A DNA stretch of 64,000 bases from Caldilineaceae bacterium. GTDB lineage: Bacteria; Chloroflexota; Anaerolineae; Caldilineales; Caldilineaceae. The DNA is taken from NCBI GenBank assembly GCA_020846635.1, contig JADLDO010000006.1:62001-126000 (forward strand), given 5' to 3'. The notes beneath the pieces are model-generated. The model searched no databases. It saw nothing but the letters and a program-made list of their open reading frames with translations, and was not told the DNA's origin. Position 1 is the first letter of the stretch. Each line of letters opens with the position of its first letter. Both the position numbers and the translations under genes were made by a program. This document shows, in pieces, positions 2,977 to 6,472 of the stretch.

Positions 2977-3004
2977 TTGACATACTGTGGTATAGTAGTA
3001 TGTA
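2977..3004 (+). promoter_or_regulatory. Candidate sigma70-type promoter with overlapping inverted repeat
   Basis: TTGACA at 2977-2982, weak TATGTA at 2999-3004 (16-bp spacer); ACATACT (2980-2986) and AGTATGT (2997-3003) form a perfect 7-bp inverted repeat. Confidence 0.4.
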
Positions 3005-3006
3005 GC

Positions 3007-3103
3007 GAGCTGGGTGGTCACAGGGCAAATGAGTGCCCCTTGAGGGTAGCAGGCTTCGCCTGACCGTGTGACATTTATGTCCCTCGTGGACTTCCCCAGC
3101 TTC
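3007..3103 (+). ncRNA. Candidate compact structured RNA, possible pseudoknot
   Basis: By-eye pairing: 3008-3014/3095-3101, 3017-3022/3067-3072, 3023-3027/3034-3038, 3050-3054/3058-3062, and 3042-3046 (GAGGG)/3081-3085 (CCCUC) crossing the second stem; U-rich tract follows. Strand not proven. Confidence 0.4.
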
Positions 3104-3105
3104 TT

Positions 3106-3600
3106 TTATTTCTGTAATAGACGAGCGATCTCCTCATAGCTAATTACGCGTTCGGCTGTTGCCTTGCCATCGTATATCTGCTTTGCCAGCCTATCAGCCT
3201 TGCTTCCTTTTACGTTCTCAAAAATGATCATCCCAGACGTAGCATCTGGCTTATTGGTACGGATGAGTGCCAAGAGTAGATTCTTGATCGTTGCCTCTAC
3301 CTGAGGGCCGTCATAATCCTTGTCAATGACAATCAAGTCAATTGTGCCGAATGACTCACGCACGACTAGGTACACCAGTACTGCCAGCAAGCGATAGCGA
3401 TCTGATTTTACTCCATACAGTTCCTTAATCAGTCTCCGAGCCTTCTGCTTTACATTGTGGGGTACCATATAGGCTCGTTGCTGTTGGTCATTTGCCATCA
3501 CTATGGCGCTGTTTCGTACCCAATGCTCTATCTTGGCACTGAGATCGACGTAGACTGTGATTGCCACTCGCGTTGATTCTCCTAAATGAAGCTTGCCCAT
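3106..3600 (-). CDS. Small hypothetical protein, possible RNase H-like fold
   Basis: 164 aa; VYVDLS (first strand with Asp), DLIVIDKDYDG, and C-terminal ENVKGSKADRLAKQIYDGK resemble the Asp positions and the AD-x-LA helix of RNase H-like proteins. Confidence 0.5.
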   Translation of the reverse strand: MGKLHLGESTRVAITVYVDLSAKIEHWVRNSAIVMANDQQQRAYMVPHNVKQKARRLIKELYGVKSDRYRLLAVLVYLVVRESFGTIDLIVIDKDYDGPQVEATIKNLLLALIRTNKPDATSGMIIFENVKGSKADRLAKQIYDGKATAERVISYEEIARLLQK

Positions 3601-3740: not shown

Positions 3741-3790
3741 ATATAGATGTAAGGGATTGGACCATATGGTCCAATCCCTTACATCTATAT
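3741..3790. repeat. Perfect 50-bp palindrome
   Basis: ATATAGATGTAAGGGATTGGACCAT (3741-3765) followed directly by its exact reverse complement ATGGTCCAATCCCTTACATCTATAT (3766-3790). Confidence 0.97.
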
Positions 3791-3820: not shown

Positions 3821-6472
3821 CTAGCACTCGCTGTACCCACACGTTGCACACTTGCGGCAGCCTTCGATGTTGAGGAAGGCTGCTTCACCACATTCGGGAC
3901 AGATGTCGCCGATGGGACGTTGGGCGATGGGCAGAGCTAGCTGTTCGTGCCGTTCTTCCTCGCGCATGGGGGGTAGGTCGCTTAGATGCTCGGCGAGGAC
4001 TTGGGCGACGCCATCGGGCAGACTGCGTACGCGGTTCGCACCAAAGCCCAGCGGTCTCCCGCCACCGATACCCGCCATTTCATCCAGCACCCAGCGCAGC
4101 CGTTCGTTTGCCGGTAGAGCGGAGGGCATGCGCAGGATGAGGCTGATCAAACGGCCTGTGGCCTCGGAGACGGCGGCAACATCGCTGCCGACCTTACCGA
4201 CATTGAGGAAGACCTCAAAGGGTTCGCCACGCTCATCGCTGTTGACGGTGATGTAGGCAGTACCGAGCGGCGTCTCCTTGCGATAGGTGCTGCCGCGCAG
4301 GATCGAGGGACGCGGGCGTTTGGTGACGACCGGCCTGACATCATGCACCGCCGGTGTGATCTCGGCACGCTTGCTTTCATGGCCCGCGGTGCCGTTGCCA
4401 TTGGTCCCGTTCGCATATGCAGCTTCGGGCGCGTGCCCATTTGCCGTAATGGCGCTGACGGCGACGGGCGCATCGTCAGTCTTCTTCTCTTTGGTCGCTT
4501 TGGTCTCCAACACAACCTCTTGTCGGCTGCCCGTGACGTAGACGGTCAAGCCCTTGCAGCCCAACTCCCATGCCAACAGATAGGCATTGGCAACATCGGC
4601 CTCGGTCGCACCTTCGGGGAAGTTACAGGTCTTGCTGATGCTGTTGTCCACAAAGGCTTGGATGGCCGCTTGCATGCGTACATGCTCGTCGGCGCTGATG
4701 TCGCTGCTGACGACAAAGGTATGGCGCAACGCTTCGGGCAGCTCCATGATGTCTTGGCAGCTTCCACTCATGGCAACCCGCTGCTTGATCGACTCCTTCT
4801 GCCTCTCGCTCAACTCGGTAGCATTAAGCGCCTCCTCAAAGCGGGGGCTGGTGTAGGGCAGTTCTACATTCTTGTCGCCGTCCTTAAAGTGGCGAATATA
4901 GCCCAGAGCAAAGACCGGCTCACAGCCATAGCCTTCGCAGCCGCAGACCGTGGCAATCGTGCCGGTGGGGGCTACGGTGGTCTGGGCAGCGTTGCGGATG
5001 CCATGTTCTTCAATGCCACCGACGATCATTTGCCAATCCAGCGAAGGACGGCCCCAATCGCGGCGGAAGGGGGTGACAGGGGTAGGGGTCTGCCACTTCA
5101 TGCCGCCCGCCTGCTTGGGATCATAGATGGAGCCTTCGTAGGCGAGAAATGGGCCGCGGTCGCCTGCAAGCTCGATGCTCTTTTCCATGCAGTGATAGCG
5201 CACAAATTCCATAATCTGGGCGGCGAACTCCTGCCCTTCTTCGCTGCCATAGCGGATGCCCAGGAGGTACATCATATCGCCCAGCCCCATGATGCCCAGG
5301 CCGATACGACGGGCGCGATAAGCTGCCTCCGCCACTTCGGGAATAACCGGCACATAGGCGTTGGCTGTCACAACATTATCCAGGAAATGGGTACTTTCAT
5401 AGATAGAGCGGCGCAGCAGATCCCAATCGACTACCGGCTTGCCGTTAGCGTCATACGTGACATGGACACCCAAGTTGATTGAGCCAAGGCAGCAGTTCTC
5501 ATAGGGGCCGAGCCACTGTTCTCCGCATGGGTTTGTCGCCTCCAGGGCATAGAGATGAGGGACGGGATTGGAACGGTTGGCGGCGTCGATAAAGAGCGCG
5601 CCCGGCTCGCCGTTGTGGTGGGCATATTTGACGATCTTGTCAAAGAGGTCGCGGGCGCGTACGCTCTTCCAGACTTCGCCATTGCGCGGGTTGATCAGCT
5701 CAAAATCGGTGTCATCCTTGACCGCTTGCATAAAGGCATCGGTGATGGCAACGGAGATGTTAAAGTTGGAAATGGAGCCTTCTTTGGCCTTGCACTCGAT
5801 AAATTCTTCGATGTCCGGATGATCCACGCGCAGGACACCCATATTGGCACCGCGCCTTGTGCCGCCCTGTGCGATCTCACCAAAAGCTTGGTCATAGACG
5901 CGCAGGAAGCCTACCGGGCCGGTGGCGCGACCGGCAGAGGTGTGAACAATGTCGTTCTTGGGGCGCAGGCGGCTGAAGGAGAAGCCGTTGCCACCACCGG
6001 TCTGTTGGATGAGGGCAGCGACACGCAAAGTGCTAAAGATGCCGTCGCGCCCCTTGCCCATATCATCTTCGATGGGCAGCACAAAACAGGCTGCCAGTTG
6101 GCCCAGGGGTGTGCCTGCGCCGGTAAAGGTAGGGCTGTTGGGGAAGAAGCGATATTCGGAAAGCAGCTTATAGAATGCTTCTGCCGCGCCTTCGGCATCG
6201 CCCTTGTGCTGGTTTTCGGCCTGGGCAATGTGATAGGCGATGCGATAGAACATGCCCGCCGGGGTCTCCAGCAGATTGCCGTCGAGGTCGCGGCGCAGAT
6301 AGCGCCGCTCCAGCACCTTGCGGCTGTTGTCGGTTAGGTTGATCTTGCTTTCCTCTACATAATCGGGTGGTGTGAGTGTGACACGCTGCCCGGCCACATT
6401 TTCAATGACAGTCGTTGCCCCATGCCGGTTGGTGGGAGCAGTGTCGGCGGTCAGGGTGGCTTTTGTTTGCAT
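3821..6472 (-). CDS. nrdJ: Vitamin B12-dependent ribonucleotide reductase (class II)
   Basis: 883 aa; [70 protein letters not shown]-type C-terminal domain and CPECG...[12 protein letters not shown] tail. Confidence 0.95.

Follow-up and report, generated by a model that had tools for sequence, protein, structure and literature searches.

A compact structured RNA convergent with the gene of a predicted small RNase H-like protein: a conserved RNA-protein pair in bacteria and DPANN archaea

The window analysed here is a stretch of 64,000 nucleotides from a Caldilineaceae bacterium (contig JADLDO010000006.1, positions 62,001 to 126,000 of the forward strand). Its positions 3007-3600 hold a two-gene cassette in which a structured RNA gene on the plus strand and a small-protein gene on the minus strand converge tail to tail. 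The features of the cassette, in window positions, are the following.

2988-2996, plus strand: putative extended -10 element TGGTATAGT of the RNA promoter, by direct reading
3007-3111, plus strand: structured RNA gene, from helix P1 through the end of the U-tract, about 100 nt, by covariation
3007-3014, plus strand: 5' strand of P1, GAGCUGGG, pairing with 3095-3102; two-sided changes in 4 of 8 pairs, 100% paired
3017-3025, plus strand: 5' strand of P2, GUCACA (3017-3022) and GG (3024-3025), pairing with 3067-3072 and 3064-3065
3035-3047, plus strand: P4 hairpin, GCCC (3035-3038) with GGGU (3044-3047); 100% paired
3050-3062, plus strand: P5 hairpin, CAGGC-uuc-GCCUG; two-sided changes in 5 of 5 pairs
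3064-3072, plus strand: 3' strand of P2, CC (3064-3065) and UGUGAC (3067-3072)
3079-3091, plus strand: P3 hairpin, GUCC (3079-3082) with GGAC (3088-3091); 100% paired, two-sided changes in 2 of 4 pairs
3095-3111, plus strand: 3' strand of P1, CCCAGCUU (3095-3102), and U-rich tract, by reading and covariation
3106-3600, minus strand: partner gene, encoding a basic (pI 9.6) protein of 164 aa, predicted to be RNase H-like

The initial annotation had proposed that the RNA lies behind its own promoter, led by TTGACA at 2977. The hexamer is indeed present at 2977-2982, but it lies only 8 nt from TATAGT (2991-2996), and because of this short spacing the extended -10 is the likelier promoter element; the proposal of an own promoter stands in substance, its TTGACA-led form being the less likely one. 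The same spacing of 8 nt between a TTGACA-like -35 and the -10 is seen in the window and in two related loci (L012 and L013), and a third (L014) has TTGCCG at this distance, while the other RNA subgroups have 16-18 nt between -35 and -10. Among 45 bacterial loci, a sigma70-type promoter (two mismatches or fewer) stands just before the RNA in 37 and before the gene in one (shuffled sequence has on average 4.6 and 5.2 mismatches), an extended -10 precedes the RNA in 31, and several archaeal loci carry a TATA-like TTTAAATA box at the RNA. In most loci 5-11 nt separate the end of the -10 box from P1, and the transcript is therefore expected to begin near P1 and to extend to the U-tract. This tract follows the outer stem in the window (3103-3111), as first read, and there overlaps 3106-3108, the stop codon of the ORF on the minus strand and the point at which the RNA had been said to end; across the family it overlaps or abuts the stop of the neighbouring family gene. 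Judged from the sequence, P1 and the U-tract form a predicted intrinsic terminator. Farther on, between the partner gene and nrdJ, positions 3741-3790 form a perfect 25-bp palindrome (a loopless hairpin of 25 pairs), which is probably a terminator or a small palindromic repeat. The best relaxed Rfam matches near the locus fall on this unrelated palindrome and were rejected as evidence of a known RNA family.

Folded as a single sequence, the plus strand has a minimum free energy of -40.4 kcal/mol (z = -1.94, with 8 of 200 shuffles equally stable) and the minus strand a z of -2.76 against its shuffles. Folding energy alone is thus only mildly unusual and insufficient to establish an RNA, so that the case for it rests on comparison. 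We aligned the window RNA, blind to structure, by MAFFT with those of four relatives (L012, L013, L014 and L020) whose partner proteins are 45-53% identical to that of the window. In this five-locus alignment, the nested helices P1-P5 have 96.4% of cells paired as compared with 80.0% in shuffles, a percentage inflated by our having picked the structure after viewing the five sequences, which hardly explains the compensatory changes. Pairing falls to 32-42% when the helix partners are slid, 16 base pairs show two-sided changes (a number reached in 0 of 500 shuffles), and the covariation score is 0.559, against 0.232 for shuffled and 0.06-0.11 for slid helices. Covariance model R2 finds the window RNA at 1.6e-20 together with the four relatives, all recovered by construction. 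In an independent subgroup of 19 RNAs, 18 pairs have two-sided changes, again matched by 0 of 500 shuffles. Covariation across relatives, which had been put forward as the check on the initial reading, is therefore strong in two subgroups.

Several of the helices read from the single sequence are borne out by this comparison. The outer stem and the inner stem can be read directly and covary as P1 and P2 (two-sided changes in 4 of the 8 pairs of P2), and so does the CAGGC/GCCUG hairpin (3050-3054/3058-3062) as P5. Three other elements fared differently. The strings of the proposed pseudoknot, GAGGG/CCCUC (3042-3046/3081-3085), are present, but they are 58% paired, the level of shuffles, with no compensatory pair; it is rejected, and P4 takes its place. 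The proposed GGGCA/UGCCC hairpin also has its strings but no compensatory pair, and its 3' strand pairs instead with GGGU (3044-3047) in P4. GUCC/GGAC, previously regarded as a competing alternative, is instead the true, covarying helix P3, and a hairpin at this position is present in other RNA subgroups too. P4 itself is GCCC/GGGU in the window and UCC/GGA or GACC/GGUU in relatives, one of its pairs appearing as C-G, U-A and A-U. What emerges is, as first suggested, a compact structured RNA, of about 100 nt with five covarying nested helices. The window gave no match to any RNA family in Rfam at gathering or relaxed thresholds, and 40 relative loci gave nothing beyond tRNA and rRNA, in agreement with the initial impression that the family is not a known one.

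Elsewhere in the family, the RNA element is about 60-110 nt long. A promoter leads into a GC-rich stem, typically GAUCGGG/CCCGAUC, that closes the element; this stem encloses an inner stem and, ahead of its own 3' strand, a hairpin, and the U-tract comes last. No consensus emerged when all 43 RNAs were placed in one alignment and folded blind, as the subgroups differ in their inner part; alignments per subgroup (named W, A and B) resolved this. The median z-score of folding energy over 82 RNAs is -2.8, a value biased by the picking of RNA ends by complementarity. RNA type tracks the protein tree, with 14 changes as against 43 after shuffling and some switching between the A and B cores. Within subgroup A, a core CUAUCCUUnACCGGACGG is nearly invariant across distant protein clades (L017, L019, L022, L028, L032, L036, L037, L039, L048, L051, L056, L062 and L068), and this constancy of sequence suggests a site of contact, with protein or in the tertiary structure, or else an exchange of RNA cores.

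Searches of Pfam, NCBIfam and the PDB with the sequence of the partner protein gave no match. In the structure model of the window protein (pLDDT 94.4, pTM 0.88), strands and helices follow the RNase H order, beta-beta-beta-alpha-beta-alpha-beta-alpha as in the RNase H-like superfamily, with strands at 15-20, 31-36, 41-46, 89-93 and 125-128 and conserved acidic residues in strand 1 (D19) and at the end of strand 4 (D93). Foldseek matches to RNase HI, RNase HII, RuvC, other RNase H-like proteins, an integrase core and small-subunit ribosomal chains are weak, none of them lying below E = 0.001 and those in the PDB being at E >= 0.002. From the model, a small RNase H-like fold can be predicted confidently. 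Across 75 members, D19, S21 and K51 are invariant, D93 is kept in 91%, and position 136 is occupied by H (92%) or D (8%); position 95 is conserved as D or E. Family proteins are about 145 aa long and basic (median pI 9.7), and their genes are under strong purifying selection, with dN/dS of 0.02-0.08 where dS is measurable.

The initial reading of a compact structured RNA was right as far as it went, and it missed the constant neighbour, a conserved protein. Homologues of the ORF at 3600-3106 occur in 19 of 150 related genomes (its own included), with up to nine per genome. Few matches with a patchy distribution came from the phylum-wide protein search, and a protein-alignment search of the whole collection found 67 loci. 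These span Chloroflexota, many CPR lineages, one Planctomycetota MAG, one Nitrospinota MAG and DPANN archaea (Woesearchaeota, Pacearchaeota and Nanoarchaeota). The taxonomic labels come mainly from MAGs, but several lineages are represented by contigs of 130-430 kb, and this speaks against contamination as the general explanation. The DNA of the RNA region can hardly be aligned in relatives, giving short matches near chance level save for one true homologue (the locus in genome G005). No similarity to it was found in plasmids and phages, and no relatives of the protein in viral contigs and plasmids.

Essentially all of the approximately 75 family genes inspected adjoin an opposite-strand RNA of like architecture directly 3' of the gene. 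In one exception (L023/L137), the RNA lies on the 5' side; it points away from the family gene and towards an nrdR-like gene, with which it converges. At L067, L096 and L101 the RNA seemed missing at first and was then found to overlap the ORF, which in L067 spans the entire RNA region. A gene without an RNA beside it was never clearly seen, and in some clades the pair is retained in synteny. The existence of a conserved RNA-protein pair is, in our view, close to certain. Its copy number varies: three CPR and DPANN loci (L094, L099 and L103) have two tandem RNA copies per protein gene, each copy in the CPR cases apparently with its own promoter and terminator, and one contig (C105 of genome G083, 9.7-12.1 kb; L040, L150, L152 and L154) has three gene-and-RNA cassettes in a row with diverged sequences.

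The linkage is looser when seen from the RNA. A covariance search blind to the protein gave 44 distinct RNA loci with retrieved flanks, of which 25 have a full gene, six a broken gene, one a contig end and 12 no gene. Furthermore, seven genomes (76-98% complete) have the RNA and no detected family protein. The RNAs without a gene keep their structure and, in most cases, their promoter; in several, the terminator is kept along with both. Poor or decayed promoters are seen in others, and part of the gene-less RNAs may be relics. This pattern can be illustrated by three orthologous loci (L138, L139 and L140), with flanks about 86% alike, in which the gene is eroded or absent and the RNAs are nearly identical, with compensating changes in P3.

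The surroundings of the pair are diverse ordinary chromosomal genes. No enrichment of defence or mobile genes was found among the neighbours, and the hypothesis of a defence island was rejected. A search for empty sites in genomes of the same genus showed that synteny breaks directly past the neighbouring nrdJ. The nrdJ homologue of one of these (L162) loses similarity to that of the window near window position 4639, possibly owing to an intein in the ribonucleotide reductase.

Among known systems, the closest kind is that of the DUF3800 gene/RNA pairs. DUF3800 proteins have an RNase H fold and are associated with structured RNAs (PMC10910872), whose motifs have been entered in Rfam (PMC11701678). 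As in the new pair, an RNase H-fold protein stands beside compact structured RNAs (DUF3800-I to XI, e.g., RF02915, DUF3800-VI) with a strong promoter of their own, and DUF3800-VI also has a closing stem with two hairpins. Kinship was not detectable by profile comparison: Pfam PF12686 (DUF3800) matched none of nine family members, and hhalign against 14 DUF3800 proteins of related genomes gave a probability of 0.7%. Nor did the Rfam DUF3800 models match the window or the 40 relative loci; in a positive control (L116), Rfam recovered DUF3800-VI. That locus has two tandem three-way-junction units at 2161-2274, with a promoter before and a terminator after, upstream of a DUF3800 gene and on its strand, whereas the new pair is convergent with a single unit. 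This layout resembles that of type III systems and strengthens the analogy of the new pair to DUF3800, not its membership.

In the type III toxin-antitoxin system ToxIN, ToxI, in which a short pseudoknot unit is repeated in tandem, lies upstream of the gene, and the toxin has a fold like that of type II RNase toxins (PMC8860590). The new pair shares with type III systems a strongly promoted RNA with its own terminator, a nuclease-like protein of about 150-170 aa and an RNA that can outlive the protein gene. It differs in being convergent, in the RNase H-like rather than ToxN fold, and in its RNA: where type III loci have tandem repeats and then a terminator ahead of the gene, there is one multi-helix unit 3' of the gene on the opposite strand, and the sole pseudoknot ever proposed lacks covariation. 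OMEGA systems, in which TnpB or IscB nucleases act with an omega RNA, likewise join an RNase H/RuvC-type fold to an adjacent non-coding RNA. The new protein is much smaller, has no further domains and matched no TnpB/RuvC family in Pfam and NCBIfam scans. An OMEGA-like guide would need a free RNA end, and here the RNA is expected to start at about P1 and has the U-tract directly after P1.

The pattern seen here is the one that would be expected of an antidote and a nuclease: strict linkage of the gene to the RNA, loose linkage of the RNA to the gene, and a strong promoter at the RNA beside a weak one, or none, at the gene. We tentatively favor, with somewhat less than even confidence, an RNA that restrains an RNase H-fold nuclease in the manner of a type III antitoxin. 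The strong promoter would supply the RNA in excess, and the P1/U-tract terminator would stop it at the stop codon of the gene. The RNA would bind the basic protein as a ribonucleoprotein and check its predicted metal-ion nuclease activity or limit it to a cognate substrate. Little protein would be made, most of it through read-through from the co-directional upstream gene, and it would act when the supply of RNA drops. This reading is favored by the constant pairing, the covariation in two independent subgroups, the RNAs that outlive the gene and the asymmetry of promoters, as well as by the RNase H-order model, the conserved D19, S21, K51, D93 and residue 136, the basic pI and the tracking of the protein tree by RNA type. 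Against it stand the dN/dS, which is low by the standard of addiction modules and would fit a useful housekeeping ribonucleoprotein as well, the ordinary chromosomal neighbors without plasmid or viral-contig relatives, the layout unlike type III, the fold matches above E = 0.001 and the decayed promoters of some gene-less RNAs.

The very low dN/dS and ordinary neighborhood, together with the same facts of linkage and promoters, leave room for another ribonucleoprotein, in which the RNA would be an activating or targeting scaffold, akin to an omega RNA, of a nuclease that is active only when complexed and that would cleave or process some nucleic acid of the cell. The strict gene-to-RNA linkage, the co-evolution of RNA type with protein clade, the invariant acidic and H residues of a basic protein, the purifying selection and the synteny retained in some clades would all fit such a cofactor. 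We nevertheless consider it unlikely, if still a serious candidate, as there is no guide-like flank or free variable sequence at either RNA end and RNAs without any detectable protein are unexpected for a pure cofactor. Improbable, in turn, is a trans-acting regulatory or structural RNA whose dedicated maturation or turnover nuclease is the protein: RNAs that keep their structure, and mostly their promoter, where no gene lies beside them, and also where the genome has no detectable family protein, would accord with it, as would the two RNA copies per gene in some CPR and DPANN loci, but a processing enzyme needs no cis linkage, and the gene was never clearly seen without an adjoining RNA. Type I-like control, in which the RNA would pair with the 3' end of the mRNA and its fold be incidental, as in the 3'-end antisense pairs TxpA/RatA and BsrG/SR4, suits the convergent 3' overlap of nearly all loci and the ORF crossing the whole RNA region in L067, but is very improbable given five compensating helices and conserved core sequences that it does not need, solitary RNAs without a local target and an RNA on the 5' side in L023/L137 that does not overlap the 3' end of the gene.

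In summary, the pair looks like an undescribed two-part genetic system, new relative to the Rfam, Pfam, NCBIfam and PDB libraries. It is possible, albeit rather doubtful, that a three-way-junction RNA here controls or directs a minimal (about 145 aa) RNase H-fold nuclease by a mechanism unlike those of toxin-antitoxin, OMEGA and DUF3800 systems, in bacteria (Chloroflexota and CPR) as well as DPANN archaea. It is rare for structured RNAs to be constantly tied to a single protein family, and such cases have often been a source of new biochemistry, as with omega RNAs, CRISPR RNAs and type III antitoxins. The pair stands out in being very small, in occurring in two domains of life, including the genome-reduced CPR and DPANN, and in being under strong purifying selection. 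Since DUF3800 shows a like association with RNA, experiments on the new pair could account for a broader class of RNase H-fold proteins and their RNAs.
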